Both the position numbers and the translations under genes were made by a program. From IMG/VR virus record IMGVR_UViG_3300007735_000753, positions 1 to 52,330 of that record: a stretch of DNA of 52,330 nt. The stretch is one strand, 5' to 3'. How positions within the stretch are numbered: position 1 is the first letter of the stretch; each line of letters opens with the position of its first letter. This document shows, one piece after another, positions 11,470 to 31,696 of this stretch. Under the pieces are notes generated by a model. It made no database searches, had not been told where the DNA came from, and was given only the letters and a program-made list of their open reading frames with translations. The stretch is from a virus.

Positions 11470-11715
11470 ATGTCGAAACGAGAGATTTACTCAGCGTGCA
11501 TCTACGGATGCCTGAGCCTTCTGGCTCTTGCATTCGGTGGTCTATGGGGGCTGATCCTGATGAACGCGGGGTTCTGGATCAGTGCAATAGATCTGGGATG
11601 GATTGACGATTACTTCGACCGAAAGCCGGAAGAGGCAATCGAGCCCGAACCCAAGGAAGAGCTACCGCCCAATGTGGTGAGGCTGCCCGTCCGTGAGTTC
11701 AAGAAGACAGCCTAG
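11470..11715 (+). CDS. Two-pass small membrane protein, moron-like
   Basis: An 81-residue plus-strand protein inside the leftward late block. AGGGAGAA lies seven bases before ATG 11470. Residues about 5-45 contain two hydrophobic segments (CIYGCLSLLALAFGGLWGLI and LMNAGFWISAIDLGW), and the rest is a charged Glu/Pro/Lys tail. TATACT at 11427-11432 could be a -10 box. Its stop lies in CTAG, shared on the other strand with the 771-residue ejection-type protein. The opposite orientation and own leader suggest independent, perhaps lysogenic, expression, for example in superinfection exclusion. The role is inference. Confidence 0.6.
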   Translation: MSKREIYSACIYGCLSLLALAFGGLWGLILMNAGFWISAIDLGWIDDYFDRKPEEAIEPEPKEELPPNVVRLPVREFKKTA

Positions 11716-15703: not shown

Positions 15704-16072
15704 TTACTTGCGACGCTTCTTCGACACTTCGTTGCCAACAAGGCCCCCAGCCCCGCCTCCAGCCGCAGTCACTACAGCGTTGGCAGCCAGCCGACCGCGC
15801 CGCATCTTGCCCTCGTTTCTCCAAGCCACGGATGCGGCTCCGGGCCCATCGGGATCACCCCCGCGATAGCGTATGGACTCAAGCTGGTTATCAGCCTGAT
15901 CCGCTACCCTTCGATCTAAATTAGGGTCTGAAGAAAACCGCTCTTTGTACCTTCGGCCAAGGCGCCTTGCGATCAAGTTGGCTGCAATTGCCCCAGCAAC
16001 ACCGCCACCAAAAACATCGGGGTCTAGCGCCTTCTCAAACACGTCGCGGTTGTCTTCTTGTTTCTTGCTCAT
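15704..16072 (-). CDS. Small internal-type protein with DNRDVFEK motif
   Basis: A 122-residue protein starting MSKKQEDNRDVFEKALDPDV. The motif D-N-R-D-V-F-E-K at residues 7-14 is shared with four other small proteins in this genome. Two glycine-rich hydrophobic stretches (FGGGVAGAIAANLIA and LAANAVVTAAGGGAGGLVG) flank a basic, charged middle, and the protein ends KKRRK. This suggests a small protein able to touch membranes, perhaps carried in the virion. I do not recognise a database family. Confidence 0.55.
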   Translation of the reverse strand: MSKKQEDNRDVFEKALDPDVFGGGVAGAIAANLIARRLGRRYKERFSSDPNLDRRVADQADNQLESIRYRGGDPDGPGAASVAWRNEGKMRRGRLAANAVVTAAGGGAGGLVGNEVSKKRRK

Positions 16073-16075
16073 GGA

Positions 16076-16609
16076 CTAACCCCCGAACGCGCGCTTCATG
16101 ATGGCCTGAATGAGAACCTGACGCTTGCGCTCTTCTTCAGGATCTGAACTTGCAGAGACGGGGCCCTTCGGTCCCTGATTGACGCCCATGCCGCCCGGCT
16201 GTGCGCCTGGAGCATAAGGCATGTTCTCGACCGGAGGCTTGGACCCCGGCTGCGGGGGCTTCTCGGGCTTTACAAAGCCACGGGAGAACCCCTGACCGAA
16301 CCCATCCGGTTCCTGATAGGGAAGCTGCTCAATACCCGGAGCGGGCATCCCCTGAGACGAGCCCAAGTCCTGAATGCCCGTCGGCTGACCCGGCTGGAAC
16401 GCGCCCATGTTGAAGTCCGGCATCGGACCCGAGAACGGCATATTCTGCACGCCCGGAGCGCCGTCTGGACCGCCGAAGGAAGGACCGAGGTTCATCCCCG
16501 CGCCTACCCCGCCCTGACCACCCTGCGGCGGGGGCATACCCCCACCCTGCGGGCTCTGGAACATCTGCGCCATCAACTGCGCCTGCTGGTTGTTTCCGTA
16601 GAATGACAT
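16076..16609 (-). CDS. Gly/Pro/Gln-rich low-complexity virion-region protein
   Basis: A 177-residue protein, largely disordered (QSPQGGGMPPPQGGQGG and similar). It contains NMPFSGPMP and NMPYAPGAQ, matching the MPY word repeated in this cluster, and ends in an amphipathic helix EEERKRQVLIQAIMKRAFGG. That C-terminal helix is shared in pattern with the two following genes. Function unknown; a flexible linker or packaging partner is possible. Confidence 0.5.
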   Translation of the reverse strand: MSFYGNNQQAQLMAQMFQSPQGGGMPPPQGGQGGVGAGMNLGPSFGGPDGAPGVQNMPFSGPMPDFNMGAFQPGQPTGIQDLGSSQGMPAPGIEQLPYQEPDGFGQGFSRGFVKPEKPPQPGSKPPVENMPYAPGAQPGGMGVNQGPKGPVSASSDPEEERKRQVLIQAIMKRAFGG

Positions 16610-16615
16610 GAGTGC

Positions 16616-17029
16616 CTAACCTCCTGGCGGCTTGAACATTGGTGTGGTGCGTGGTGCAGGCTTTGCAGGGGGCGCCATGGGCCGTCCTGCGGGTGGCTTA
16701 TAGCTACCCATTCCCCCACCTGCCGGGCCGCCCGCGCGGGCCATCACGGAGCGGATGAGCGCCGTCCTGCCGGGTGACATGCCATTGCCCTGCGGAGCGC
16801 CACCCACGGGCGCCTGTGGGGCGGGTGGTTGGGTCTGTGGAGCCGGGGGCTGTGTCTGGGGCATCGGGGCCTGACCACCGGGGCCATACGCCATGATGGG
16901 CGGTGCCTTTGGGTCGGGGCCGTAGATGGTATTCATATTGGTCGGGGGCGGAGCGGGAGGGGAAACCCGTCCCAGCATCTGAGGCTGCTTTCCGCCCGGA
17001 GCGGTAAACATGGGGTTCATGGGGCTCAT
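16616..17029 (-). CDS. Proline-rich low-complexity virion-region protein
   Basis: A 137-residue protein dominated by Pro, Gly, Ala and Gln, with repeats such as QTQPPAPQTQPPAPQ. The only predicted helix is GMSPGRTALIRSVMARAGGP, which matches the R-x3-[LF]-x2-[AS]-x-M-x-[RK] pattern of its neighbours. It lies six bases from the preceding gene. There is no enzymatic feature. The disordered design suits a scaffold or ejection-associated peptide. Confidence 0.5.
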   Translation of the reverse strand: MSPMNPMFTAPGGKQPQMLGRVSPPAPPPTNMNTIYGPDPKAPPIMAYGPGGQAPMPQTQPPAPQTQPPAPQAPVGGAPQGNGMSPGRTALIRSVMARAGGPAGGGMGSYKPPAGRPMAPPAKPAPRTTPMFKPPGG

Positions 17030-17030
17030 T

Positions 17031-17327
17031 CTATTCCTCTACTCTCGATCTCATCATGGCGTTTACAAGTCTGACCCGTTCTTGGGGAACGGCTTCAACG
17101 GGTGGTACGGGAGGCTGTGTAATGACGGGGGGTGTTGTAGGCCCACCCGTCGTGGGTGTGGTTGGTGGAGTTGTTGGAGGTATAACGGGCGGGGTCACAA
17201 CCGTCGGACCGGGAGGCTGTGTGATGGGTATGAGGGGTGGCGTTGGCTTCAGCATCCCCGCCGTCTGATAGGTCGGGAACTGGGGCTGCATCGTGATGCC
17301 CTGATAAGACCCAGAGACTTTAGGCAT
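17031..17327 (-). CDS. Pro/Thr-rich low-complexity virion-region protein
   Basis: A 98-residue protein beginning MPKVSGSYQGITMQPQFP, followed by about 50 residues of PPTTPPTTPTTGG-like sequence and a C-terminal helix PQERVRLVNAMMRSRVEE. That helix repeats the pattern seen at the ends of the adjacent proteins. Its start overlaps the S74-type protein stop by eight bases. Probably a small structural component; the function is unknown. Confidence 0.5.
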   Translation of the reverse strand: MPKVSGSYQGITMQPQFPTYQTAGMLKPTPPLIPITQPPGPTVVTPPVIPPTTPPTTPTTGGPTTPPVITQPPVPPVEAVPQERVRLVNAMMRSRVEE

Positions 17328-18636
17328 TGCGGCGACCCTCCAACTTCTTGACCTTGCGGGCTAGTTGCTGGGTCGCGGCCATGTTGACGCCCACTGCATC
17401 GACCACGGGGATCTCAGATCCATTCCCAAGACCGAAGAAGCCCTTGAAGTCTTGCGCCATGGGGCCGACGTGGCGCTGTTGGCCTCCATCGGCAACACCA
17501 GGTTTATACTCCCATGACTTGATCGGGATTTTCTCCACGCCCTTCAGGATGGAATTGGCCGGTCTTACATTCTGCTTCTTGTTCTTGTCGGAGATAAGCG
17601 CCGAGCCAAGTGACCCCACAATCGAACCGATGCCCGACCACATCGAACTGTTCTGCTGCTGACGCTGGTTGTAGGCCTGAAGCTGGGCGTTATACGAGTT
17701 CCAGATGTTCCCTTGTACGTCGGGAGCCTGAACGCCCTGCGTATAGATGTTCCCACCCTGAACGGTCGGGGTCTTGGGGCTTGCACCTAGGAGAGTGGCT
17801 ACCCCCTGAGCGGGCGCATTGTACTGAAGCAAGGCCTCATTGGTCATCGCCTGACGTGCCTGCTGGGCCAACTGGGCGTTCTGGAGTTCCTCCGAGATGA
17901 TGCCCTGACGCGCCGTCTGCTGGACCTGACCCTGCTGGAGTTGTTCGGCTATCGCTCGCGCACGTGCATCGGTTCCCAATCCATACATACGGGATTGTTC
18001 TTGTGAGCCTGCTGCCAATGCATCCGCTGCAATGCGCGACATCTGCTCGTTCTGCGAACGGTTGAGACGGTCCATCTCACCGTTGTAGGCCTCACCCGTA
18101 ATGGGAAGGCCCCGATTAGCAAGCATCTGCTGGGTTGCCCGCGTCTGGTTTTCAAACTCAGGACGCAGGAGGCTCATGCCACGGTCGAACATGGTCTGCT
18201 GATAGGAGTCTCGATCAGCAGAGAAATCACCCGAACCCGGAGCGTTCGGAACATTCGACATGTTCAGCCCGTACATGTAGTCGGGCGCCCCGTTGAGATC
18301 CAACCCTGTCGTATAGCCTGGCAGATTGGTGGGAAGGCCAAAGGGGCCTGTAGGGACTGAAGCCGCAAGATTTGCAGCCGCATTGCTCAGGGTTCCCTGA
18401 AGCTGGGTCTGGGCGTCGAATGCGGCTTGCTGTTCAGGAGAGAGGCTCACCCTCTGTGCAATGGGTACTCCCTCGCTATCCTTATCAAACGTGATGTTCC
18501 CGTAGGGTGTGTACTGGGCGAGATTATTGAGCTTGGAGGATTCCTTCGCGGACTTGATATACGCATCCGCCTGCGCCTGGCTGGTCTTTACGGGATCGGG
18601 CGCTGCTGGAGCGCTGCCACCGGCCGACTTACCCAT
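17320..18636 (-). CDS. Virion protein with C-terminal S74-type chaperone domain
   Basis: A 438-residue protein. The N-terminal 300 residues are Gln/Ala-rich and helical (MLANRGLPITGEAYNGEMDR and similar). Residues about 340-438 match the peptidase S74 intramolecular chaperone: LISDKNKKQNV with the cleavage-site Ser-Asp, KSWEYKPG, HVGPMAQD and a C-terminal helix QQLARKVKKLEG. Such domains trimerise fibres and then cut themselves off. Here the passenger is helical rather than beta-helical, as in several short-tailed phages with a helical protein before the stabilisation gene. Confidence 0.75.
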   Translation of the reverse strand: MGKSAGGSAPAAPDPVKTSQAQADAYIKSAKESSKLNNLAQYTPYGNITFDKDSEGVPIAQRVSLSPEQQAAFDAQTQLQGTLSNAAANLAASVPTGPFGLPTNLPGYTTGLDLNGAPDYMYGLNMSNVPNAPGSGDFSADRDSYQQTMFDRGMSLLRPEFENQTRATQQMLANRGLPITGEAYNGEMDRLNRSQNEQMSRIAADALAAGSQEQSRMYGLGTDARARAIAEQLQQGQVQQTARQGIISEELQNAQLAQQARQAMTNEALLQYNAPAQGVATLLGASPKTPTVQGGNIYTQGVQAPDVQGNIWNSYNAQLQAYNQRQQQNSSMWSGIGSIVGSLGSALISDKNKKQNVRPANSILKGVEKIPIKSWEYKPGVADGGQQRHVGPMAQDFKGFFGLGNGSEIPVVDAVGVNMAATQQLARKVKKLEGRRNA

Positions 18637-18639
18637 GAG

Positions 18640-19062
18640 TTACTCCTTGATCCACTTGCACTCATCCCGGAGCATTCCAAGGACAAATGCGTCGTTAATT
18701 CCGTCGTATGCTTTGCGGGCGCAACCTTCGATCTTGAAGCCTAGCCCTGTATTCAACTTCAATGCTCTTTCATTATTTGCCCCGATGATGAGCGTCATCC
18801 GTTCCAGTCCCTGCTGGACAAACGGATAATGAAAGAGGGCGGAGAGAACTCCCTTCCTGCACCACTTCGGGCTAGAGGCTGCAAACGTCAGTTCGCAGTC
18901 AAACTTCCTCCAACGATGATAGACAGCCCCACCGATGAGCCTGTCATTCTCCGCAATGCCGATGGTGGTGTAAGGGCCGAACTCCTCGACGCCCATCTTC
19001 TGGGGAAGGAGCGTAACAACGAATTCCGCTACTTCCTGTTCTTTCCCGAATACAAGACTCAG
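18640..19062 (-). CDS. GNAT-family N-acetyltransferase-like protein, CTG start inferred
   Basis: About 140 residues. FVVTLLPQKMGVEEFGPYTT, GGAVYHRW, RKGVLSALFHYPF (acetyl-CoA loop region) and ERALKLNTGLGFKIEG (the N-x-x-A-x-x-x-x-x-x-x-G-F element) follow GNAT order. No ATG or GTG precedes conserved residue 1. CTG 19062 overlaps the upstream stop as CTGA, the equivalent of the ATGA overlaps used elsewhere, and gives SLVFGKEQEVAEFV. Phage relatives are commonly encoded next to tail stabilisation genes. The acetylated substrate is unknown. Confidence 0.7.
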   Translation of the reverse strand: MSLVFGKEQEVAEFVVTLLPQKMGVEEFGPYTTIGIAENDRLIGGAVYHRWRKFDCELTFAASSPKWCRKGVLSALFHYPFVQQGLERMTLIIGANNERALKLNTGLGFKIEGCARKAYDGINDAFVLGMLRDECKWIKE

Positions 19063-20597
19063 ACGAGGCCGGCGGGCTTCATCACCATGCTTGAGGATCG
19101 CCAGCTTACGCCTTGGCTGGTCAGCGAGACCCGCAACCGCATCGAAGCTGAGTAACCCAGCCCGTTCACGCCTTGCCACCCTCTTACCGACTGGCTCGCT
19201 CCGCCCCATACATCTACATCCCATATTGCTTCGTCCCAGATACCGCCGCTATCAACGGCAGCCGTGGAAACGCTTGAGGTTGGAACCGAAATATCAAAGT
19301 CCGTCCCGATTGAAATCAACGCACCGGGATCGCTGACGGCTGAGAAGATAACCCGAGCCATCGTGAAGTTCTTCAGTCGATCACTTGATCCGAAGAAATT
19401 CCATGCTGTCTGGGCATCTCCCACAATGGCGGACCCATTATCAGAGTACCCATCGTTACACTTGTAGACCTTCCCGTCCGTTCCCCCTCCGTAGAGGTTA
19501 TCGTTGAACAGACCGAAGATCGGGAAGTTCCATCCGGTGAACTTGCACCAGGATTGCGTGTCCGTATTCATCACGTGTTGGTCAAAGGCGGAGGTAGACC
19601 GTGGCACGTTGAAGATGAGCATTCGCCCACGGGGGTAGAATATGGCCTGCCAGCCCGTGTTGTCCCGGTAGAGGCGCATGGCCTCGGACACAGCAAGGGA
19701 TATCTTGTCTGAAAGGTCTAACTGGCTGGGCTGGGTACGACCGAAGGGGAGAACCTTCGTGAGTGGAGTGTATGACCCGTCTGTAATAGCAATCAGATCA
19801 GAGCCAAACTGAACGAGGCTGGAGTTGCCAATCGGAGGGCCAAGGTAGAACGTACCCACGCGAGACCAATCCGTAGACGATCCCGGATCAGACCCCTGAT
19901 AGATAATCACTTCACCCGACGAGAGGAAGAACGCGATCAGGTCATCCTGTCCCGTACCGCCATCGCTTGTGATTGTACCAATCGCCTTGAGCACACCACC
20001 GAATGAACCCGTGTACTTCAGCGGGAACTTGGTGAGGCTTCCCGAGATTGCTTGGAGTCCCGCATACCAGAAGTTCAGGGTGTTCTTTTCAATGAAGAAA
20101 AGACGTTCCTTGAAGACTGCTACATCGGAGAGATTGGTAACGGTAAGCCCCGACCCCGACCATGAGGTGGAGGTTAGAGTTGACCCATCATAATCTTGAG
20201 GGGCGTCCGTTCCATTGACAAGGAACAACCGCTCGGAGAAGTTCACCCACTTCCATCGGTTCTGGCTGAAGCCGGTTCCAATTGTGGAGGGTGTAGATGT
20301 GGAAACGTCGATAAGCTTCCCATTCACTGCTGCAACCAGCTTCCGACTAGTAGACGCCTTCCACTCAGCAAGGGTCTGGACTGAATAAGCACCCTCCCCC
20401 GTATTGCAATGGAGCGTGTGCCCCCCCCTGATGACCACATCACTCTGACGGGGGAACCAGTTCTCGAGGATGACGGCATCGCTCGGCTTCATGGAGTCTA
20501 GTGCGTCTCGTGCGTTCCACCCACCAACCGGAGGCGGCAAGGGGCGCTCAACCGCTGCGGGACCGCGACTGACCTGCCTGCCTCTGATCTGGAGCAT
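19059..20597 (-). CDS. Tail stabilisation protein, P22 gp10-like
   Basis: A 512-residue beta-rich protein. The start, with PLPPPVGGWNARDALDSMKP and AVILENWFP, is typical of phage proteins annotated as packaged-DNA stabilisation or gp10-like tail hub proteins. Numerous WD-like beta segments (WYAGLQAISGSLTKFPLKYT and others) suggest a propeller. In P22 such a protein closes the portal and anchors the tail needle and tailspikes. It lies between the GNAT-like gene and the ejection-type genes. Assignment is by family resemblance. Confidence 0.7.
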   Translation of the reverse strand: MLQIRGRQVSRGPAAVERPLPPPVGGWNARDALDSMKPSDAVILENWFPRQSDVVIRGGHTLHCNTGEGAYSVQTLAEWKASTSRKLVAAVNGKLIDVSTSTPSTIGTGFSQNRWKWVNFSERLFLVNGTDAPQDYDGSTLTSTSWSGSGLTVTNLSDVAVFKERLFFIEKNTLNFWYAGLQAISGSLTKFPLKYTGSFGGVLKAIGTITSDGGTGQDDLIAFFLSSGEVIIYQGSDPGSSTDWSRVGTFYLGPPIGNSSLVQFGSDLIAITDGSYTPLTKVLPFGRTQPSQLDLSDKISLAVSEAMRLYRDNTGWQAIFYPRGRMLIFNVPRSTSAFDQHVMNTDTQSWCKFTGWNFPIFGLFNDNLYGGGTDGKVYKCNDGYSDNGSAIVGDAQTAWNFFGSSDRLKNFTMARVIFSAVSDPGALISIGTDFDISVPTSSVSTAAVDSGGIWDEAIWDVDVWGGASQSVRGWQGVNGLGYSASMRLRVSLTSQGVSWRSSSMVMKPAGLV

Positions 20598-20600
20598 GGG

Positions 20601-21701
20601 CTACTTTCGACGCTTGGGCGCTTCTACGATTGCGGCTTCGATGTCATCCCGCACCGAGGCGGGTTTCGTTCCCTTGGGAAGGTCGAAGGGTCTCTTGGGC
20701 TTCTTTGGCCTCGGGTTCTCCCAAGGCTCGGGGGGCTTGCGTGGCATGACCTTCGCACCCGTGGCCTCTGCCGGCTTGGCAAACATGCGCTTGATGGCGC
20801 CGCCCGCCTTTGAAATCACTGGGGCCAAGATGCCACCTCCCACCGCTGTTGCCGCCGCGAACGGCGCTATTGATCCATCTTCTGTAACTGCATTGACGCG
20901 GTCGCCCACATCACCTTCCGCCTCACCCATATCCATGACGGCGAGTGTCCCCGCGCCAGAGGCACCGAGCCCAGCCGCTGCTTCCGCCGCCTTGCCCGCT
21001 CCCGTTGTTGCCTCGGGAGCAAACCCCAACAAGCGACGCCCGCCCTTGATGAGCATGTCAGCGCCCTTGTTGATGCCGGAGAAGATTGGCCCTCCAGAAA
21101 GAAGCCCGGCAGTTGTTCCCACGACACTGCGGGGCGAGAATGAAGGCTCGTAAGCCACATCCTCCTCCTTGATGCGACGGGCTTCCTTGACGTTCTCGTC
21201 GTAGGTGCCTTGTCCAAATAAGGCACCTGCCCCCGCAACCACCTCATCATCAAACCCGAACAGGGGCCATGAGAGGCCGTTCAGGATCATGGCTTGGTAT
21301 TTCTCATTCTCGGGGCGTGGGTCATTTTCCCCCGGCTCAAACAATTGCCACGGTTCCGGCATCTCAGGAAGAAACCACGACATGTCGGGGCTGCCTTCCC
21401 CGAGGCTCTTTTCCCACTTCTTTTTACGGTATTCGTATGATCCGCTATCGTCCGCGTAGGGGTCTTCGTACCCCATGCCCTCGAGCACATAGGACCACGT
21501 GGACCGGTTATCCTGGTCCGGGTTGTTGGCGTAGTACTCTTCCTTTCTTTCCTTCATGCTTGCCTGCGTGAAGGGAAGATCGCTGTCCTTGAGTGTGCCC
21601 GCCTTAGCCTTCTGATAGAGAGCGCGCGCCTCTTCCGGGTGCTGCTCTGCCCACTGGGCGATTTGCTCTTCGCGTGAAAGAGAAGGGGGCCGGTAGGGCA
21701 T
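20601..21701 (-). CDS. Putative internal virion protein, paralogue of the 771-residue protein
   Basis: A 366-residue protein starting MPYRPPSLSREEQIAQWAEQ. FGFDDEVVAGAGALFGQGTY and GPIFSGINKGADMLIKGGRR closely match the N-terminal region of the 11712-14027 protein. An Ala/Gly-rich segment follows (TGAGKAAEAAAGLGASGAGT), and the end ASVRDDIEAAIVEAPKRRK combines a VRDDI motif, also found in the 22599-23042 protein, with a basic tail. Likely a second ejection protein made by duplication and divergence. Confidence 0.55.
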   Translation of the reverse strand: MPYRPPSLSREEQIAQWAEQHPEEARALYQKAKAGTLKDSDLPFTQASMKERKEEYYANNPDQDNRSTWSYVLEGMGYEDPYADDSGSYEYRKKKWEKSLGEGSPDMSWFLPEMPEPWQLFEPGENDPRPENEKYQAMILNGLSWPLFGFDDEVVAGAGALFGQGTYDENVKEARRIKEEDVAYEPSFSPRSVVGTTAGLLSGGPIFSGINKGADMLIKGGRRLLGFAPEATTGAGKAAEAAAGLGASGAGTLAVMDMGEAEGDVGDRVNAVTEDGSIAPFAAATAVGGGILAPVISKAGGAIKRMFAKPAEATGAKVMPRKPPEPWENPRPKKPKRPFDLPKGTKPASVRDDIEAAIVEAPKRRK

Positions 21702-21714
21702 CTGTATCTACCCC

Positions 21715-22110
21715 TTAACGACGGCGCGGCTTCTTGCGGCGGGGCTGCTTGGGAATAACCAACTGGTAAGACCCGTCCTTGCGGATCTTGAAGATCACAC
21801 CATCATCCCGGCGCATATGCACGCGGCTGTTATAGGATGTCTGCCATGAGCCAGTTCTTTCATTCCACGTTACCGGCTCGTACCTGCGGCCTTCGCTATC
21901 GCGGTAGTACTTAACTTCTCTCTGTCCTGACGCCCTGTTTGGGAGGATCTCGCGCACAGGATAGATCTTGACTACCTTGGTCTTCATCTTGGGAGACTTT
22001 TTCTTTTTTCCCAAGCCAAAGAGTGACGATGGCCTCTTGGCCGCCGTGGCGCTCTTTGCCGTCGTAGCCTTGATGGCGCGATCAATCGCGAACCTTACCC
22101 CACTCGGCAT
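21715..22110 (-). CDS. Small strongly basic protein
   Basis: A 131-residue protein rich in Lys and Arg (LFGLGKKKKSPKMKTK), with a beta-rich middle (REVKYYRDSEGRRYEPVTW) and a C-terminus ending PRRKKPRRR. High charge suggests nucleic-acid binding, possibly DNA condensation or internal packaging. It lies between an ejection-type gene and the M23 peptidase. No family is recognised. Confidence 0.55.
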   Translation of the reverse strand: MPSGVRFAIDRAIKATTAKSATAAKRPSSLFGLGKKKKSPKMKTKVVKIYPVREILPNRASGQREVKYYRDSEGRRYEPVTWNERTGSWQTSYNSRVHMRRDDGVIFKIRKDGSYQLVIPKQPRRKKPRRR

Positions 22111-22113
22111 GTC

Positions 22114-22599
22114 TTAAACTCCTGAATAATCTTTGTAGAAGAACTGCTTGGGGTCCACGGAGCGGTTATCCTTCCTCATCCCGAAATGGAGATGGGGCCC
22201 GGTGCTTCTTCCCGTCGTTCCCACATAGCCGAGGATGTCACCCCGCTTGACCTCGCCCCCGCTCAATCCCTTCTTCGATACCTTGCTCATGTGCAGGTAG
22301 CGGGACTGATACCCGTCCGGGTGCTTGACCGTGACCTTGTACCCACCGACCGGGTCCGGGGTATTTCCATCAATCCACCCGTCTTCTGAGGCGTAGATGG
22401 GAGTGCCAGGTGCAGCGGCGTAATCAATCCCCTCGTGAAGCATTGGCTTCTTGAGGATGGGATGCTCGCGCATACCGTAGGGAGAGGAAACGAAGGATTC
22501 ATCCCTCAACGGAACATCCAGATCGGGAGACCCCTTCTTCATCATGGCGCGGACGAAACGCTCACGCGCCGCTCTGGCCTTGATGCCGTTGTAGGGCAT
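22114..22599 (-). CDS. M23-family peptidoglycan endopeptidase (virion-associated candidate)
   Basis: A 161-residue protein. The LytM/M23 zinc site is complete: HEGIDYAA (His55, Asp59) and HLHFG (His136, His138), with SPYGMREHP, YLHMS and GDILGYVGTTG in order. The first 25 residues (MPYNGIKARAARERFVRAMM) carry both the MPY word and the R-x3-F-x2-A-x-M helix of neighbouring proteins. It probably cuts cell-wall cross-links during DNA entry, because it is encoded among internal proteins and far from the lysis cassette. Its ATG overlaps the stop of the next gene upstream. Confidence 0.9.
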   Translation of the reverse strand: MPYNGIKARAARERFVRAMMKKGSPDLDVPLRDESFVSSPYGMREHPILKKPMLHEGIDYAAAPGTPIYASEDGWIDGNTPDPVGGYKVTVKHPDGYQSRYLHMSKVSKKGLSGGEVKRGDILGYVGTTGRSTGPHLHFGMRKDNRSVDPKQFFYKDYSGV

Positions 22600-23042
22600 T
22601 AGCGACCTCGCTTACCGCGAGATGCCCTGCCCTCTTCATAGGCGCGTCGCATGAGCTTACCCATCGGGGTCTGGCCATAGGGACCGTAGATGATTGGCTT
22701 GATGGCCGCATCATCTCCATTCACCCCCGCCTGATAGGCCCCACGGATCATGCGATCCGACTCTTCCGGGTCTTCATAGGCAGCGGGGAACCCCTCATCC
22801 GCACCTGGACCTTCCATCTGCTTCTTGCGGGCGAATTCGTCCACGTCGCTATCACCCGTCTCATAGGGCATACCCCGACGCATACGGCTTGCAGAGGCTG
22901 CCTGTGGGGCGAAGGATGGGCCCTGAGCGACATTAGCCGCCATCGGGTCCATGCCCATTTCCCCGCCCTCTCCACCCATCTCTGCGCCTTCTAGGACGGT
23001 ATAGATGTCATCACGCACGGTAGGCGGTCGCTTCATCTTCAT
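22599..23042 (-). CDS. Small acidic internal-type protein with VRDDI motif
   Basis: A 147-residue protein. ATG 23042 is chosen because GGAG lies six bases upstream and the preceding stop is at 23045. It begins MKMKRPPTVRDDIYTVLEGA, contains RRGMPYETGDSDVDEF and ends RASRGKRGR. Methionine, glycine and acidic residues are frequent. The VRDDI, MPY and basic-tail elements link it to the surrounding presumed internal proteins. Function unknown. Confidence 0.5.
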   Translation of the reverse strand: MKMKRPPTVRDDIYTVLEGAEMGGEGGEMGMDPMAANVAQGPSFAPQAASASRMRRGMPYETGDSDVDEFARKKQMEGPGADEGFPAAYEDPEESDRMIRGAYQAGVNGDDAAIKPIIYGPYGQTPMGKLMRRAYEEGRASRGKRGR

Positions 23043-23044
23043 GT

Positions 23045-23743
23045 CTAACTCCACGTTCCTTCAGGAATGCGACCACGACCCAGTCCCTGGAGCGTTGGCC
23101 CTGCAATGTTCAACTTCCGGCGTGTGCCATCCCGCGCGATGATTTTGGACTTCTCCCGCTCGTACTCGTCGTATCTCTGGGAGTAATCGAGTCCTTTGGC
23201 TTCCAGCCATCTCCACACGAGGGAAAGCGTGAGGAGGTGCTCGGGCAATCTCCCGGTATCACTATCCGCCGCCCATGCCGCCTGTGCCGTACCACCCGAA
23301 GACTGGCACCACTTGTTGGAGACGTACTCGTAGTAGATGGTCTGCCCTGCAGAAGGAGCCGGCATGAAATAGAACTGGTTTCCTCTAATCCGGTACTGAG
23401 ACCAGACGGTGGAGGTCACCTGCGCCTTCTGCGCCTGCCAGCTTTGGGCACTGAGAGGCCCATACACTGGGTCAGTCGTGGTCCGGTTCCACAGGGTCTC
23501 GCTGATGATGCGGTCGAGGTCTGTGGGGAGGGTGTGCCCGGATTGGACCTCAGTAGCCACAGTCGTGAACGATGTTTCCGTCACCAACGCCTGCCAGTCA
23601 TGTTCCCGCATGAGGACATCACCGGCAATGTTGCACAGGGCAAGTAACTGCTTTTGCGTTTCGCCCGTGTTGCTGTAGACGGTGGAAGTCACAGGCAGGT
23701 TGAGCATGGCCTGCGCGCGATTGGTGATCGTGAGCAAACTCAT
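23045..23743 (-). CDS. Head completion/tail adaptor protein (gp4-like)
   Basis: A 232-residue protein. The opening (ITNRAQAMLNLPVTSTVYSN, then LLALCNIAGDVLMREHDWQA) and YYEYVSNKWC, RLPEHLLTLSLVWRWLEAKG and YDEYEREKSKI are the usual signature of podovirus gp4-like or tail tubular A-like proteins that bind under the portal and extend the head exit. It is encoded downstream of portal and capsid, consistent with a head-tail connector. Its first codon overlaps the stop of the next gene in ATGA style. Confidence 0.75.
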   Translation of the reverse strand: MSLLTITNRAQAMLNLPVTSTVYSNTGETQKQLLALCNIAGDVLMREHDWQALVTETSFTTVATEVQSGHTLPTDLDRIISETLWNRTTTDPVYGPLSAQSWQAQKAQVTSTVWSQYRIRGNQFYFMPAPSAGQTIYYEYVSNKWCQSSGGTAQAAWAADSDTGRLPEHLLTLSLVWRWLEAKGLDYSQRYDEYEREKSKIIARDGTRRKLNIAGPTLQGLGRGRIPEGTWS

Positions 23744-23970
23744 TTCCTGCGCCTTCCGTCATTGAGGGAGGGATAGACCCCCGCCGTGTAACCAGCGCCC
23801 ATGCCGGCAAGTGTCACGAGATTCTTCCGTTTCGCGTGAAACTTCTTCAGCTTGGGGCTTTGCCAGACTTTCCGGTCATAGAGTTTCCTCGCCCCGACAC
23901 CACCGAGTGCGGCCCCTGCAATGGGAGCCACCTCCAGCGCCTTGTCGAAGATGTCCCGGTTGTCTGACAT
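23740..23970 (-). CDS. Small internal-type protein with DNRDIFDK motif
   Basis: A 76-residue protein starting MSDNRDIFDKALEVAPIAGA. The motif is at residues 3-10, followed by two glycine-rich hydrophobic segments (APIAGAALGGVGARKLYD and LVTLAGMGAGYTAGVYP) separated by a Lys/Arg-rich loop, and an end NDGRRRK. It has the same plan as the proteins at 15704-16072 and 24229-24498. Probably a small membrane-active virion protein; no database family is recognised. Confidence 0.55.
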   Translation of the reverse strand: MSDNRDIFDKALEVAPIAGAALGGVGARKLYDRKVWQSPKLKKFHAKRKNLVTLAGMGAGYTAGVYPSLNDGRRRK

Positions 23971-23971
23971 G

Positions 23972-24229
23972 CTAGCCCTTCCTGGACTTGGTCACGACCG
24001 GCTTCTGGATCGGATACTCAAACGCCTTCTCAAACACATCGCGCGTGTCGATGGAGTTGATGGCCTTCGCAGCCTTCGTCACCGGAGAGACCTGTTTGGC
24101 AGGGCGGTACGGCATTGTCTTTGCTGTGCCCGTCCCCGGTACATAGTTGGGAATGGGAACAGTCTTACCCGTCCCCGGCTTGTACGGCATCTTGGGAAAA
24201 GAGCCGTAGGGGTTCTTCTGGTTCGCCAT
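23972..24229 (-). CDS. Small basic protein with MPY repeats and DTRDVFEK motif
   Basis: An 85-residue protein. KMPYKPGTGKTVPIPNYVPG and TMPYRPAKQVSPVTKA give two MPY-x-P elements. DTRDVFEKAF occupies residues 61-70, and the end is KSRKG. The rest is proline-rich and likely extended. It combines all the short motifs that recur in this cluster in one small protein. Function unknown; the start overlaps the upstream stop by one base. Confidence 0.55.
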   Translation of the reverse strand: MANQKNPYGSFPKMPYKPGTGKTVPIPNYVPGTGTAKTMPYRPAKQVSPVTKAAKAINSIDTRDVFEKAFEYPIQKPVVTKSRKG

Positions 24230-24498
24230 TACTTGCGCCTCTCTTTCTTTTTGGCGTCGTTGTACTGACGGTTCAACGAATGTCCCATGCTGTAGGCGCC
24301 ACCAGCCAGACCGCCAGCCATAGCGCCTTTAAAACCTTCATCGCCAAGGCGCTTACGACCGACTGCCTTCTTTGCTTTCCCAAAAGCACGACCAGCCACG
24401 CCACCAGCGAGCATTCCGGCGATCATTGGGGCGGGGGATTCCATGACCTTGTCAAAGATGTCCCGGTTATCTTCAACTTCCTTGAATTTCTTTCCCAT
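24229..24498 (-). CDS. Small glycine-zipper protein with DNRDIFDK motif
   Basis: An 89-residue protein starting MGKKFKEVEDNRDIFDKVME. The motif is at 10-17. Two glycine-zipper-like segments follow (APMIAGMLAGGVAGRAFGK and GFKGAMAGGLAGGAYSMG), with a basic loop between, and the end is KKKERRK. AGGAGG lies seven bases upstream of ATG 24498. The architecture fits insertion into or crossing of a membrane during DNA delivery, but this is inference. Confidence 0.55.
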   Translation of the reverse strand: MGKKFKEVEDNRDIFDKVMESPAPMIAGMLAGGVAGRAFGKAKKAVGRKRLGDEGFKGAMAGGLAGGAYSMGHSLNRQYNDAKKKERRK

Positions 24499-24510
24499 GA
24501 GGACGCCTCC

Positions 24511-24864
24511 TTACGACGCTACAGTCGGAATCGTATGGCAGGCAGTGGCGCTCGTGAAGAACACCACAACGCTCTTGGCCGTGGCCATGGAGAGCGAGGT
24601 CGTGGCGTTGATCGTGGCACCCGTGGGCGGGTACAGGGTCAGGGTAGAGCCGCTCTCGTTCTTCACGAGGTAGGTATCACCCTTGTTGGAAGCAGGGAGA
24701 ATGGCCCCGCCTGAACCGGACGAAAGCAGGACGCATTCCGCCGTGATCTTCGCCGCATCCGTCGCGCTCGATCCCGCTGCTGCCAGCGACTGCGCTTCGC
24801 CCACAATAGCCTGGGCCTGAACTGCCGGCGTACCGGCGCTCATCAACTTTGTCTGTCGTGCCAT
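24511..24864 (-). CDS. Small beta-rich virion-region protein
   Basis: A 117-residue protein starting MARQTKLMSAGTPAVQAQAI. The N-terminal third is helical and alanine-rich. The remainder (GDTYLVKNESGSTLTLYPPT and SMATAKSVVVFFTSATAC) looks like a compact beta sandwich. A similar domain type is common in small phage proteins near capsid genes. It could be a decoration or minor head protein. No firm family. Confidence 0.5.
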   Translation of the reverse strand: MARQTKLMSAGTPAVQAQAIVGEAQSLAAAGSSATDAAKITAECVLLSSGSGGAILPASNKGDTYLVKNESGSTLTLYPPTGATINATTSLSMATAKSVVVFFTSATACHTIPTVAS

Positions 24865-24870
24865 TCGTAG

Positions 24871-25503
24871 TTACTCCTTTGCCTTCCTGGCTCTTGGTTC
24901 TGCGGCAGGTGTCTCGGTTTCCCGTTCCTTCACCGCGCTCAATAATTGGTCCATCTGGATCTGCATCAGGTCCAACTGACGCTTCAGTTCCCGGTTCTCG
25001 ACTTCCATCTTGGCGAGAGGGGCTGCACTCTTTGCGCTATCCATGAACGCCTTCGCCTTCTCGCGCATGTCACGCAGGCCAATGGCGCCCGGCTTTGAAA
25101 TTGCGCCGTCGCTCAACGCTGCCAACTGCTGCACCGTGAAGACGTTCATGTATTCGAGGGCCTTGGCCATCTCGGTCGGGATCAGCGGCCAGAGGGAGAG
25201 TGGAATCCCGTCTCCAATCATGTCCGGGTTAATTCTCTTTGACTTCCAGATGCCGTACTCGTTCGGAAACTGCTCCTTGATCGCCTGCGTCACGCGCTTG
25301 ACCGGGGAGTTGCCTTTGTCCCCTGCAATAAGCAGTTCAACAAACTCAACCGTGCGGAATACGGGGAGGCCGTTCGCATCGATTTCATTCGTGCGCTTTG
25401 TTTCCTCGAAGAAGCGCGGCGTGATGTGCGCCATGTTCTCTTTCTTCGGGATTTTCTGCTGCAAGGCGACGCGGTCGTGCATTTCCATGTTGTCAAAAGA
25501 CAT
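24871..25503 (-). CDS. Conserved-type phage protein with C-terminal coiled coil
   Basis: A 210-residue protein. The N-terminal domain includes HITPRFFEETKRTNEIDANG and QFPNEYGIWKSKRINPDMIG, a helix-hairpin-like region (VFTVQQLAALSDGAISKPGA) follows, and residues about 155-195 form a coiled coil (MEVENRELKRQLDLMQIQMD). Such proteins are common between capsid and tail genes of podovirus-like phages but lack an assigned role. The end is charged and ends RKAKE. Confidence 0.55.
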   Translation of the reverse strand: MSFDNMEMHDRVALQQKIPKKENMAHITPRFFEETKRTNEIDANGLPVFRTVEFVELLIAGDKGNSPVKRVTQAIKEQFPNEYGIWKSKRINPDMIGDGIPLSLWPLIPTEMAKALEYMNVFTVQQLAALSDGAISKPGAIGLRDMREKAKAFMDSAKSAAPLAKMEVENRELKRQLDLMQIQMDQLLSAVKERETETPAAEPRARKAKE

Positions 25504-25574
25504 TGGATCTTCCTTCTAGTCGTAAGACTTCCGCCGGAATTGGCGGAGTGGTCTTGAAAAAATGGAGTGGGGAC

Positions 25575-25754
25575 CTAACCCCCGAAGACCTTCTCGAACA
25601 CGTCGCGTGTGTCTTCAGTAGGAATAGCAAGCATCCTGCGCCTATCCCTCAAAATCTGGTCCGGGCCTGATTCAATGGGCGGGAGGGGCTTGGGTCTTGG
25701 GGTTGGTACAGGTCGCTTGGGTTGGGTCTGCGGCCTTGGCTTCTTGGGCGTCAT
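25575..25754 (-). CDS. Small Pro/Lys/Arg-rich protein ending in DTRDVFEK motif
   Basis: A 59-residue protein from ATG 25754 (GAGGGTT upstream; a TTG at 25760 is possible). Residues 1-30 are proline and basic (MTPKKPRPQTQPKRPVPTPR), then a helix, and DTRDVFEKVFGG forms the very C-terminus. The motif is the fifth copy in this genome and is almost the only structured part of this protein, which suggests that the motif itself is the functional element. Confidence 0.55.
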   Translation of the reverse strand: MTPKKPRPQTQPKRPVPTPRPKPLPPIESGPDQILRDRRRMLAIPTEDTRDVFEKVFGG

Positions 25755-28079: not shown

Positions 28080-28100
28080 TGGAAGTCTCGGTTGGGGGGA

Positions 28101-28133
28101 AGGAAGAAGGGGTGAGCCTTTGGAGCCCACCCC
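28101..28133 (-). terminator. Hairpin after the decoration-type gene
   Basis: On the minus strand GGGGTGGGC and GCTCACCCC form a 9-bp stem with one wobble around a 7-nt loop, followed by TTCTTCCTTCC. It may partly terminate after the abundant capsid messages and lower expression of the fusion protein gene downstream. Confidence 0.5.
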
Positions 28134-28669: not shown

Positions 28670-29635
28670 TTAAGCGACAATGACGCCCTGCAGCGAGCGA
28701 TTGCTGCAGGTGAGGTTGCCGGCCCAGCCGATGAGCTTGACCATGGCGTCCTGGTTGACCGAGAACCGATCCGGGTTCATCGGGACCATGTTGCGGTCAC
28801 GGTGAGGACGGAACTTGATGTAGTTGGTGTTCAGGAAGTACATGTGCGCGCTCGGCGCCGTACCCGAGAAACCACCATCATACACAACGTCCGCACCCAT
28901 GAACTTCAGGGTCTGGAAGCCGGCGGAAGCCATCTTGTCGTCAGTGACGCGCTGAATGGCCTGCAGGGATTTCCAGTAATAACCGAAGTAGGTGTTGTCC
29001 GCGACGATGAGGTCCGGCACATCCCGGTTGCGCGAGATGGACAGGTAGAGCGAGTTCATCGCGTCCTGAATCGTCAAAGCCGAAGCCGCGACGCCATTGG
29101 CGCTGAAGTCGTACACCGCGTTCTGCCAGAACGAGTAGGTCGAGGAGTTGATGCCTCCAACCGTACCCGTACCAGCGTCCGACACCAGAAGCTGCAGACC
29201 ACCGATCTGCTTGCCGCCCGTGCCCGTGCCGTCCGAGTAGACGCCCGTGCTGAGGTTGTTCAGCATCGTCTTTTCGGCGTTCTTGATGCGGGCTTCGAGG
29301 AGGTCGATGACCTTCTCACGGCCCGAGTTCTTCAGGAGTTCAAGACCATTGATCTTGACGGCAACGGCGGCCTGCTTCCACTCGTACTCGGCCGAGGTGA
29401 AGACATCCGAAGAGCCCACGTTCAGGGTTTCGTCGCCGCTGTAGTACATGAACGTGCTGTTTTCAGCGTATTCAAGTTCCTCAACGATGGAGCGACCGCC
29501 AGAGACGGGAGCGATGTTTTCCTTGTCCTGAAGACGGGACAGGAGAGCGATATTCTTGGACATGTTGTCACGCAGTTTTCCGCTGCGATAGCGGAGGGTC
29601 GTGGTGACGATTTCGTCCAAACCAGGACTTGGCAT
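28670..29635 (-). CDS. Major capsid protein (HK97-fold type)
   Basis: A 321-residue protein beginning MPSPGLDEIVTTTLRYRSGK. An N-arm helix, an E-loop-like stretch (GGRSIVEELEYAENSTFMYY), the spine-helix region (KVIDLLEARIKNAEKTMLNN), IQDAMNSLYLSISRNRDVPD and a C-terminal beta domain (SAHMYFLNTNYIKFRPHRDR) match the plan of phage capsid proteins annotated in the HK97 superfamily. It lies directly after an acidic scaffold-like gene and upstream of a decoration-type gene. There is no fused protease. Confidence 0.85.
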   Translation of the reverse strand: MPSPGLDEIVTTTLRYRSGKLRDNMSKNIALLSRLQDKENIAPVSGGRSIVEELEYAENSTFMYYSGDETLNVGSSDVFTSAEYEWKQAAVAVKINGLELLKNSGREKVIDLLEARIKNAEKTMLNNLSTGVYSDGTGTGGKQIGGLQLLVSDAGTGTVGGINSSTYSFWQNAVYDFSANGVAASALTIQDAMNSLYLSISRNRDVPDLIVADNTYFGYYWKSLQAIQRVTDDKMASAGFQTLKFMGADVVYDGGFSGTAPSAHMYFLNTNYIKFRPHRDRNMVPMNPDRFSVNQDAMVKLIGWAGNLTCSNRSLQGVIVA

Positions 29636-29663: not shown

Positions 29664-30734
29664 TCAGAGAAGACCCGCAGAAGCGGCTTCAAGAAGCTGC
29701 CTCGTTGACATCCCCTCGGCTGATTGCTCGCCATACATGCCTGAAGCACCCGTGATGCTTGATGCTGCCATGCGGGCCTCCTCGGCTCTCATCCTCTGGG
29801 TGCGGTTTTCCCGTGCGCGGGACTGCGCCAGAAGTTTCGAGCGTGTGTAAGGATTGGCCCACTTGGCTCTCTCATAAGCCTCGTGGATGTTTGAAGCGCG
29901 TCCTGACTCGATTTCGATGGCCATATCTTCTTCAAGTTCATTGAAGTATGGATAGGCCGGCTTTCCATCTGGTCCGACTTGGCTTGCGAAATTCTCAATA
30001 GCATCGTTCGTTACGGTGAACGCCTGATGATACTGTTGCTGCTGTGCAGCTTGCTGCGCCTGCATCTGGACTTGCGCGGTTTGGTTCAGTTGAGCCTGAA
30101 CGCCGGCGAGTTGCTGACGCAGCACAGCGACTTGCGGATCGACATACTCTTCCTCTTGTGGGTTCACGAGAGAGTTGAGGTCGATGCCTCGCAAATTAGC
30201 GAAATACTTGAGGAACTCCTGGGGGGAGTTCGTGGCATATTCTGACAGGGCAATAAGCTGCTGCATGGCTTGGGCCGGGCCCATTCCATTCAGTGCCCAC
30301 TTCTGGACATGCGGGCTGATGACCCGCTCCATCTCCTGATAGCCCTGTCGGACCTTGGCGATTTCCTGTGTCTTGCGCGTGTAGTCCGCCATCATGTGGC
30401 GGGCGCGGTCGAGATAGGCGTGCTGAAGCTGGGGAGGGAGGTTCTTGAAGAACTCCTGCTCCTGCTGCGGCCAGTTGGCGGGTGGATCAATGGGGCCTAG
30501 TTCGTCTTCCCCTTCGTCCTCACCCTCTTCCTCGTCGCCCTCTTCGCCTTCGTCCTCTTCGGAAGCCTCGAGTTCTTCCTCGTCGCCTTCCGTGTCGGTC
30601 TCTAGTTCGTCCTCGTCAGTCTCGAAATCTTCATCATCTTCCGGGCCGTTGATGTCGGGGGTGAAGTCATCATCATCCCCTGCCATTACATCAACTTCTT
30701 CCGAGGCGTCGTAACTGTCGCGCGGGCCTGCCAT
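29664..30734 (-). CDS. Putative scaffold protein, very acidic N-terminus
   Basis: A 356-residue protein. ATG 30734 has GGAG six bases upstream; 30746 is an alternative. Residues about 15-85 are almost all Asp and Glu. A helical Gln-rich coiled coil follows (VAVLRQQLAGVQAQLNQTAQ and QMQAQQAAQQQQYH), with a basic helical C-terminus (RSKLLAQSRARENRTQRMRA). Acidic-helical proteins just upstream of the capsid gene are typical internal scaffolds, the basic tail binding the capsid. Assignment by composition and position. Confidence 0.75.
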   Translation of the reverse strand: MAGPRDSYDASEEVDVMAGDDDDFTPDINGPEDDEDFETDEDELETDTEGDEEELEASEEDEGEEGDEEEGEDEGEDELGPIDPPANWPQQEQEFFKNLPPQLQHAYLDRARHMMADYTRKTQEIAKVRQGYQEMERVISPHVQKWALNGMGPAQAMQQLIALSEYATNSPQEFLKYFANLRGIDLNSLVNPQEEEYVDPQVAVLRQQLAGVQAQLNQTAQVQMQAQQAAQQQQYHQAFTVTNDAIENFASQVGPDGKPAYPYFNELEEDMAIEIESGRASNIHEAYERAKWANPYTRSKLLAQSRARENRTQRMRAEEARMAASSITGASGMYGEQSAEGMSTRQLLEAASAGLL

Positions 30735-30801
30735 TGTAGTCTCCATGTCACGAGGTTTTGGTTACTCGGTTCCACGCCGCGTGTGCGGCACTCAAATCCA
30801 T

Positions 30802-31116
30802 TCAGCCTTTGTAGCGATGCTCTTCCATAGCGCGGCGAATGTCCGCGACCGGATCAGGCGGGGCTTGATACGTCTGCTTGACGCTCTCGTTGCCCACTTC
30901 CACCAGACCGCGCGCCCTGAGATGGTCGCGGTGCTGTTTTCTTCCACCAATGATCGAGCCATCGACCACTGACTTGTAAGGATCAATGTCCTTCATGATT
31001 TGAAGGCCGATCTTGTCCTCACCCTTGCGCTTTCTGTAGTGGTCAAGGCACTGGGTGGGCCAAGGCTCCTGCAGGTCGTGCCATCCGTTGCAAACATCGC
31101 AATGTCTGCTTGCCAT
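30802..31116 (-). CDS. Small zinc-finger-like protein
   Basis: A 104-residue protein. ATG 31116 is chosen because AAGGAG lies eight bases upstream and the longer frame would overlap the next gene. CDVCNGWHDLQEPWPTQCLD holds a C-x2-C ... H ... C site. Basic residues follow (HYRKRKGEDK and GGRKQHRDHL). It resembles short phage proteins between portal and scaffold genes. Function unknown. Confidence 0.55.
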   Translation of the reverse strand: MASRHCDVCNGWHDLQEPWPTQCLDHYRKRKGEDKIGLQIMKDIDPYKSVVDGSIIGGRKQHRDHLRARGLVEVGNESVKQTYQAPPDPVADIRRAMEEHRYKG

Positions 31117-31132
31117 TTCAGTCTCCTTCGGA

Positions 31133-31696
31133 TTACGCAGCGAGGAGAAGTATGGCCGTGATGGCTTCTTCCTCTTGCTGCTCAATCTTCCTCGCCTTCT
31201 CCTCGTAGTCCTGGAGAAGTTTGGTCAGTCTCTCGGCTGAGGCTTTGTCCTCCGCCGCTTTCAATTCATATGAAACGCGCACCAGTTGGATGCGCAGTTG
31301 CTCGAGAGGCGCGAGTTCAACCCGTACCGCTTCAGGAAACACCGGCCAGAAATCAAACTTGGGCCTGATAATCTCCGCGACCTTGCGAACGACCTTCTTC
31401 CGCTTCCTGCGGCTTGTCGCCGTGGAGAGGTCTTTAAGAGCCTGTCTAATCGTTCTTCGCAGTTCTCCCCGGTACTTGCCCCGGTACCAATAGGCAGCGC
31501 CCCCTCCACCCGTGGATTGGGTTGGGGCTTCAATAACCGGCTGGCTATGGTCGATGTAGGAGAGCGTTCCAACCAATGAGCCGGAGCCAGACAAGCTCGC
31601 GGACATTGCATTGGGATCTGCCGCCCCTCCCTGGAAATACCTCTCAGGGAAGTATCGTTCCGGAAAGTACCGGTCAGGGAAATGATCCCCCGCCAT
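31133..31696 (-). CDS. Virion-region protein with RYFPE repeats
   Basis: A 187-residue protein starting MAGDHFPDRYFPERYFPERY, three tandem RYFP-type repeats common at N-termini of minor phage structural proteins. SASLSGSGSLVGTLSYI matches the beta repeat of the next gene upstream. The second half is basic and helical (RRKRKKVVRKVAEIIR), then a coiled coil (LKAAEDKASAERLTKLLQDY). Probably a minor head or tail component; role unknown. Confidence 0.5.
   Translation of the reverse strand: MAGDHFPDRYFPERYFPERYFQGGAADPNAMSASLSGSGSLVGTLSYIDHSQPVIEAPTQSTGGGGAAYWYRGKYRGELRRTIRQALKDLSTATSRRKRKKVVRKVAEIIRPKFDFWPVFPEAVRVELAPLEQLRIQLVRVSYELKAAEDKASAERLTKLLQDYEEKARKIEQQEEEAITAILLLAA

Follow-up and report, generated by a model that had tools for sequence, protein, structure and literature searches.

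A capped terminal helix shared by small virion-module proteins and scaffold ends in a group of P22-like phages

Results

Genes of the virion module and the class-1 motif

The window analysed here is the whole 52,330-nucleotide stretch of IMG/VR virus record IMGVR_UViG_3300007735_000753. Table 1 lists the proteins of its virion module with which we are concerned. A first-pass annotation had pointed to a D[NT]RD[VI]F[ED]K motif, here called class 1, in five small proteins, and its coordinates and residues are correct: exactly five copies occur in the 52 kb, all on the minus strand. A six-frame search of the window with D.RD.F[ED]K returns these five as its only matches, and a degenerate DNA pattern of the motif recovers the same sites but has no match in 100 dinucleotide-preserving shuffles of the window. 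Searched across all viral sequences of IMG/VR, the class-1 pattern is found in just 19 stretches, 18 of which belong to relatives of the window phage; the exception, a terminase (L081), is a chance match. This search leads us to reject class 1 as a widespread phage element, as it is confined to the lineage of the window phage.

Table 1. Coordinates of the virion-module proteins and of their terminal segments in the window.
Gene	Strand	Protein	Segment	Residues	Segment (nt)
15704..16072	-	glycine-zipper protein, 122 aa, KKRRK end	class 1, DNRDVFEKAL	7-16	16025-16054
16076..16609	-	Pro/Gly-rich protein, 177 aa	class 3, RQVLIQAIMK, C-terminal		16094-16123
16616..17029	-	Pro-rich protein, 137 aa	class 3, RTALIRSVMA		16739-16768
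17031..17327	-	Pro-rich protein, 98 aa	class 3, RVRLVNAMMR, terminal		17049-17078
20601..21701	-	366-aa protein	class 2, SVRDDIEAAI, near C-terminus, then KRRK	349-358	20628-20657
21715..22110	-	basic protein, 131 aa	class 2, GVRFAIDRAI	4-13	22072-22101
22114..22599	-	M23 peptidase, 161 aa (PF01551, E=2e-28)	class 3, RERFVRAMMK	12-21	22537-22566
22599..23054	-	151-aa protein	class 2, TVRDDIYTVL	12-21	22992-23021
23740..23970	-	glycine-rich protein, 76 aa, RRRK end	class 1, DNRDIFDKAL	3-12	23935-23964
23972..24229	-	Pro-rich basic protein, 85 aa	class 1, DTRDVFEKAF, near C-terminus	61-70	24020-24049
24229..24498	-	glycine-zipper protein, 89 aa, ERRK end	class 1, DNRDIFDKVM	10-19	24442-24471
25575..25754	-	Pro/Lys-rich protein, 59 aa	class 1, DTRDVFEKVF-GG, terminal	48-57	25584-25613
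28670..29635	-	major coat protein (phrog_9953, E=2e-112)	untagged
29664..30746	-	scaffold-position protein, 360 aa	weak variant, STRQLLEAAS, C-terminal	347-356	29679-29708
30802..31185	-	127-aa protein directly upstream of scaffold	scaffold-like VADIRRAM, C-terminal; 10-mer DPVADIRRAM	111-120	30826-30855

The class-1 copies lie at either end of differing proteins (three N-terminal, two C-terminal), and the class-2 copy of the 366-aa protein is also C-terminal. To call the carriers otherwise unrelated goes too far, since the N-terminal ones (15704, 23740 and 24229) share one architecture, in which the motif is followed by two glycine-rich helices (a glycine zipper) and an RRK C-terminus; they align with about 20 similar proteins in relatives. 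The 15704-16072 protein resembles the Pfam glycine zipper 2TM family (PF05433) weakly, its 18.0 bits falling below the gathering cut-off of 24.2, and searches of PHROGs and Pfam gave no useful family for the glycine-zipper, Pro-rich and scaffold proteins. An AF2 model of the 24229..24498 protein, of low confidence (pLDDT 61) and illustrative only, has a helix at residues 14-20 and then two long helices. The 366-aa protein is a paralogue of the N-terminal half of a 776-aa protein (11712-14042). The largest two of the putative internal proteins, of 776 and 553 aa, carry neither a clear class-1 nor a clear class-2 tag.

When the class-1 copies are compared in pairs, third codon positions disagree in 54% of cases and positions 1 and 2 in 13%, with identity of just 16-40% across the 45-nt flanks. 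The copies are thus not recent DNA duplications, and on this synonymous divergence we reject a DNA-level repeat as their explanation.

A broader capped helix

Rather than a single mobile ten-mer, the class-1 motif is one form of an N-capped amphipathic helix, [DST]-x-[RE]-[DEG]-x-phi-x-x-A-phi. Five was accordingly an undercount: three more module proteins bear the same helix in another form (class 2), and the end of the scaffold-position protein is a weaker variant besides. The pattern, which was defined once the window had been seen, occurs at the termini of 8/31 virion-module proteins in the window compared to 1.33 in shuffles (p=0.0005); outside the module it shows no enrichment (1/37 proteins). 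In the relative G001 it is present in 6/29 module proteins (p=0.004) and 1/49 outside.

Four further proteins bear another segment, class 3, which is clear across four orthologous families and is conserved in orthologues of the M23 peptidase. In distant phages its matches are near chance (38 compared to 18.5 expected, half of them from the training families), and its kinship to classes 1 and 2 is unproven.

Conservation and exchange of forms in relatives

Copy number differs among relatives, and one sister phage carries eight motif copies. Between the window proteins and their G001 counterparts, identity is 7-10/10 within the motif and 36-71% elsewhere, the motif being higher in all five pairs; the orthologue of 23972..24229 keeps 9/10 motif residues with 53% identity elsewhere, and that of 25575..25754 keeps 10/10 with 71%. 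Loss of the motif from otherwise conserved surroundings, named beforehand as a finding that would refute a docking tag, was looked for in relatives, and the reverse was seen, the motif being better conserved than the remainder of the protein.

The forms also change places. GVRFAIDRAI of the window's 21715 protein aligns with class-1 DNRDVWEKAL in the L015/L190 orthologue (41% identity, E=1e-26), and the L005 orthologue of 21715..22110 has class-1 DSRDVWEKAL in the motif slot. In the orthologues of 22599, class-2 or class-1-like forms occupy the same slot. Class 1 and class 2 replace each other in the orthologues of both genes. A G003 protein (12905) carries the two in tandem, and in the distant phages L123 and L128 non-scaffold proteins bear the form of their own scaffold (SVRGDILAAI next to SIRGDLMRAM).

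The same helix at scaffold ends

The 29664..30746 gene lies directly upstream of the coat gene. We call its product the scaffold on the strength of its position, its length, a helical model and its homology; it has no database match, and its model matched nothing in the PDB by profile/sequence or by fold. In the model, the C-terminal variant forms a separate single short helix (348-356) after a flexible linker. An N-terminal copy is not clear in the window scaffold, and its C-terminal variant is weak. Across the wider group, scaffold-position proteins have the helix at the C-terminus and frequently at the N-terminus too, many scaffolds of distant relatives being two-ended (e.g., DMEDDIRAAM ... 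SIEDDIRAAF). N-terminal scores reach 23, with the 99.9% null at 11.9. In the cultured phages Mx8, Mx9, ppBjS10J-1 and BUCT555, which lie outside the training set, all 8/8 scaffold ends reach p<=0.012. The N- and C-terminal copies co-vary: the two within one phage are more alike than copies taken from different phages (p=0.00002, 14 lineages).

A matrix whose training set comprised only scaffold C-termini from other phages (coat identity <64%) gives 18.5 bits at the C-terminus of 20601-21701 (shuffle p=0.001) and p=0.035 at the 22599..23054 site. Class-1 sites score -9.6 to 0.9 with it, and p<0.05 is reached in only 1/5 (DTRDVFEKAF, p=0.03). Against a class-2 matrix, they score best in exactly the motif register (mean 8.2; other offsets <= -3.7). 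Because the scaffold-trained matrix alone misses class 1, its link to scaffold ends runs via class 2, the register and the orthologue swaps. A matrix that includes near scaffolds yields 22 non-scaffold matches of at least 14 bits over all loci compared to 3.8 expected, among which L186 resembles a scaffold fragment and L086/L090 are probably spurious ORFs. The end segment of 30802..31185 scores as scaffold-like in two analyses (p=0.03 and p=0.045), and its syntenic counterparts, Mx8 p46 and Mx9 p79, end in QDIARAI (p ~0.06).

Discussion

A candidate procapsid-docking tag

We favor the reading, at a probability of roughly 55%, that the helix is a tag for procapsid docking that was borrowed from the scaffold and brings small proteins of this short-tailed phage into the growing head. 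The first-pass annotation had proposed a docking or packaging tag, and motif conservation, placement at either end and the scaffold end-helix in relatives support that part indirectly. A gp4-like protein, which it had listed among the possible partners, is unlikely, as we found no link between the tag and gp4.

In P22, the scaffold C-terminus binds coat (PMC12005531), scaffold is required for packaging of the ejection proteins (PMC8402733), and cargo fused to scaffold residues 141-303 or 238-303 gets packaged (PMC9962691). In the wider group, the helix would be the end-helix of the scaffolding protein, by which the scaffold most likely holds the coat lattice on its inner side. In the window lineage, small proteins of several kinds would have acquired it at their ends: those with glycine zippers, those rich in proline, and a paralogue of a putative ejection protein. 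During assembly, these proteins would dock at sites of the kind that the scaffold uses, become enclosed together with it in the procapsid, be retained on scaffold exit and then be delivered with the DNA. Coat as the docking partner, the presence of the carriers inside virions and their ejection are what we infer. Several observations weigh against this reading: the scaffold-trained matrix alone misses class 1, the window scaffold has a weak C-terminal variant and lacks a clear N-terminal copy, the 776-aa and 553-aa proteins are without a clear tag, P22 gp8, gp7, gp16 and gp20 fail to score, and the terminal pattern was defined once the window had been seen.

A partner other than coat is possible, if distinctly less probable: the helix could pair with itself or with scaffold, so that scaffold ends bind mutually and tagged proteins join a scaffold core. 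Co-variation of the two scaffold copies is what one expects of mutual partners, and the scaffold requirement of P22 ejection proteins fits as well. However, in the window lineage it is the small-protein tags that are strong, the scaffold copies being weak or having been lost, which would make the scaffold end a poor partner, and the near-lineage coat is 93-98% conserved. We consider it somewhat less probable still that paralogy alone is at work, a small glycine-zipper gene having been duplicated several times and its N-terminus recombined onto two Pro-rich proteins, with the helix serving the folding or membrane insertion of the protein that bears it and no docking. The single architecture of the three N-terminal carriers and the variable copy number agree with this; yet the C-terminal copies are on Pro-rich, non-membrane proteins, class 1 and class 2 exchange at the same slot among orthologues, the same helix is found at scaffold ends, and motif identity exceeds that of the rest of the protein in 5/5 class-1 comparisons.

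That the helix holds the small proteins together in an ejection conduit after delivery seems improbable to us. The carriers do resemble membrane-hairpin, spacer and basic parts, and an M23 peptidase lies in their midst, but the scaffold, which in P22 is not ejected, bears the helix in phages where no tagged small proteins were detected. We give hardly any credence to a DNA or RNA element (a recombination site or regulatory repeat) translated by accident: several repeats do lie within one gene cluster, but synonymous positions vary and the flanks are unrelated, so the codon pattern contradicts it, and the likeness to scaffold ends was found at the protein level.

Returning to the docking tag, it is tempting to speculate, at slightly less than even odds, that one capped helix is a common head-interior docking code of this P22-like group, two-ended on the scaffold and copied in one lineage onto small internal proteins, roughly a dozen of them. 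If so, this would be natural cargo loading via scaffold mimicry by a modular tag exchanged between forms and ends, and carrying the tag would decide packaging.

How P22-like phages choose the ejection proteins to be packaged is an open question beyond the scaffold requirement, and no targeting signal for it is established in the literature searched. The open-licence literature likewise yielded no description of a scaffold motif at both ends, nor of a tag of this kind in P22-like phages. A portable end-helix common to scaffold and small proteins would make packaging selection directly testable, would allow sequence-based prediction of internal virion proteins across a large group of uncultured phages, and would give a ten-residue cargo handle in place of the P22 scaffold portion of at least 66 residues that engineers currently fuse. 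In the cultured phages Mx8 and Mx9, the motif at both scaffold ends is immediately testable.

Comparison with known systems

That the motif has no described equivalent is too strong a statement, given an artificial precedent in cargo fusion to the P22 scaffold C-terminus (PMC9962691) and a functional one in the T4 capsid-targeting sequence (CTS; PMC5694885). The coat-binding hook of P22 gp8 (268-303) is likewise a helical scaffold C-terminus connected with the body through a flexible stretch, and cargo fused to it packages (PMC12005531, PMC9962691). It is a helix-turn-helix, whereas our scaffold model has a single short helix and so does not match the hook. As members of the helix family, P22 gp8, gp7, gp16 and gp20 were rejected by score (gp8 p=0.4; gp7, gp16 and gp20 without the tag).

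Closer parallels are found in the Myxococcus phages, where Mx8 p47 and Mx9 p80 occupy the homologous position by a related coat gene and have the capped helix at both ends (SLRESLAAAA / SVRGSLEAAW in p47; SLRGSLEAAM / SLRGTIEAAW in p80). The terminal form of this Mx8-like group, R/E-[DEG]-x-phi-x-x-A-phi, is also that of 20601-21701 and 22599. Unlike the window phage, Mx8 and Mx9 show no tagged small proteins save for a weak segment at the C-terminus encoded by the adjacent upstream gene. Both p47 and p80 are annotated merely as hypothetical in their records.

Encapsulin cargo-loading peptides resemble the proposed tag in that they are short, terminal and bind to the inside of an HK97-fold shell, but encapsulins are non-viral shells without a scaffold and use another peptide.

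The T4 CTS is, like the window tag, a short end-sequence common to several differing proteins, and brings the internal proteins and Alt into the prohead core (PMC5694885). It differs in being an N-terminal propeptide of 10-20 residues cut off by the prohead protease; the window tags are at either end, 2/5 class-1 copies and that of the 366-aa protein being C-terminal, and no prohead protease was recognised among the virion-module proteins annotated and searched. A further difference is that the window tag has the form seen at the scaffold ends of relatives. The best reading is that the tag works like the T4 CTS without being a CTS member.

Five motif copies and the proteins that carry them

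A six-frame search of the window, itself a virus record of 52,330 bases, recovered the five D[NT]RD[VI]F[ED]K copies (class 1) listed by the first-pass annotation and no others. A degenerate DNA pattern hit the same five sites in the window and none in 100 shuffles. At the DNA level these copies differ at synonymous sites and their flanks are unrelated, which argues that selection acts on the protein. PHROG matches in the window include coat, portal, terminase, gp4-like and gp10-like tail genes.

The carriers had been described as otherwise unrelated. This holds between the N-terminal and C-terminal groups, but the three N-terminal carriers form one family: aligned with about 20 proteins of relatives, they follow a common plan, in which a start rich in Lys leads to E-D-N-R-D-I-F-E-K-A-L-D, then to a pair of glycine-rich stretches, and the protein closes with K-R-R-K. 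Both C-terminal carriers are rich in Pro, without a glycine zipper. Nearly all glycine-zipper proteins, and 20601-21701, end in K/R-R-R-K, which may serve as another common tag or bind DNA.

Queries with the tail-hub and coat proteins gathered 79 and 80 viral loci, respectively. Scanning all of IMG/VR for class 1 gave 19 stretches, all on contigs with homologues of the window phage except for a terminase on locus L081. The related genome G001 (51,991 bases) has eight copies and other near relatives have one to four. Between the window and G001, the motifs of the five class-1 proteins are identical at 7-10 of 10 residues and the remainder at 36-71%, with two of the five pairs perhaps paralogues rather than orthologues. 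Locus L094 carries three class-1 proteins in tandem (1484-2640) adjoining the large terminase gene on its upstream side, so the family occurs outside the ejection cluster too.

A broader capped helix

A second form, class 2, reads [ST]-[VI]-R-[DGKR]-[DA]-I-x-[KRA]-A-[IL] and sits on further proteins of the cluster. The two classes share an N-cap for the helix (position 1 is mostly D/S/T, position 4 mostly D/E), hydrophobic residues at 6 and 10, and A at 9.

Proteins of the window with a class 1, 2 or 3 segment (named by coordinates)
Protein	Form	End
15704	class 1	N-terminus
23740	class 1	N-terminus
24229	class 1	N-terminus
23972	class 1	C-terminus
25575	class 1	C-terminus
20601-21701	class 2	C-terminus
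22599-23054	class 2	N-terminus
21715-22110	class 2	N-terminus
16076	class 3	
16616	class 3	
17031	class 3	
22114-22599 (M23 peptidase)	class 3	N-terminus

The two forms replace each other among orthologues. Starts of the 21715 protein read GVRFAIDRAI (window), GVRFALERAI (G001), SVRTAILKAL (L013) and GVRKAIYKAI (L121) on the class-2 side, and DNRDVWEKAL (L015/L190) and DSRDVWEKAL (L005) on the class-1 side; one slot of the 22599 family holds TVRDDIYTVL, SIRSDIERAA, GRDIWDRVNG or YDIWDKIRG. Two related genomes have class 2 replacing class 1 in the glycine-zipper/KRRK plan (G002 30029-30340, G003 21936-22262), and G003 12905-13285 has both in tandem. Scored with a class-2 matrix, class-1 sites reach their maximum in the register that aligns both forms; motif instances for the matrices were picked by eye. 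A loose pattern covering both, written post hoc, finds terminal copies in 8 of 31 proteins of the virion gene cluster against 1.33 expected, and no excess of terminal copies outside it.

Class 3, R-x-x-[LF]-[IV]-x-[AS]-phi-[LM], may be related to these. The M23 peptidase gene among its carriers lies within the head/tail gene cluster. The 366-aa product of 20601-21701 is paralogous to the N-terminal half of 11712-14042 (31% identity, E=1e-22); the latter, 776 aa long, shares phrog_5880 with Mx8 p57.

The helix on scaffold ends

Directly upstream of the coat gene, nearly all relatives encode a 300-400-aa protein, which we name scaffold from where it lies, its size, its helical model and its homology; that label for it is absent from all databases searched. 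Its C-terminal segment is conserved in relatives (e.g., SIEDDIRAAF, SIRGDLMRAF, SIRDDLISAF, TLREELIHAY), and many distant scaffolds have this helix N-terminally as well (e.g., DMEDDIRAAM, DLRGDLAKAF, SLRDTIENAI). With a matrix trained on these C-termini in phages whose coat is less than 64% identical, the 20601-21701 C-terminus reaches 18.5 bits (p=0.001); class 1 by itself is not recognized by this matrix. The held-out cultured phages Mx8, Mx9, ppBjS10J-1 and BUCT555 have the helix at both scaffold ends (8 ends, p 0.002-0.012), and a fifth record, ctMlz233, shows it just weakly at the C-terminus.

N- and C-terminal scaffold copies are more alike within than across lineages (14 lineages; p=0.00002, which is optimistic because lineages share ancestry). 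In two distant phages a non-scaffold protein has the form of the scaffold: L123 (TVRGDLMAAV, scaffold SIREDLLAAV) and L128 (SVRGDILAAI, scaffold SIRGDLMRAM). The window scaffold retains no more than a weak C-terminal variant, STRQLLEAAS, modeled as a separate helix (348-356) after a long helical body and a flexible stretch. A scaffold-like DIxxA[MI] end, weakly supported in several groups, is seen on 30802-31185, Mx8 p46 and Mx9 p79, encoded just upstream of the scaffold.

Coat genes themselves are split after codon 84 in several near relatives, G002 (40881-42725), L082 and L007, the pieces lying about 860 nt apart; the insert looks like an intron or intein, and in G002 the gap holds a homing-endonuclease-like ORF (41637-42350). 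Those of L003 and L121 are interrupted too.

A proposed docking tag for the procapsid

On the most economical reading, the helix is a tag that docks proteins inside the procapsid. The window lineage would have placed this tag on many small proteins whose place is in that interior; its partner would be coat, and the carriers would be packaged and later ejected. The tag is missing from proteins that would be expected outside or in the shell, namely coat, gp4-like, tail hub, the S74-domain protein and the glycosyltransferase/methyltransferase fusion; it is likewise missing from portal and from the 776-aa and 553-aa proteins. The S74 chaperone domain ends 17320-18636, a virion protein encoded after the tail hub, and the fusion (26004-28130, 708 aa), encoded in the virion gene cluster, joins a glycosyltransferase-like part and a methyltransferase-like one.

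In P22, scaffold binds coat through a hook at its C-terminus (PMC12005531), ejection proteins stay unpackaged without scaffold (PMC8402733), and fusing cargo to this C-terminus gets the cargo packaged (PMC9962691).
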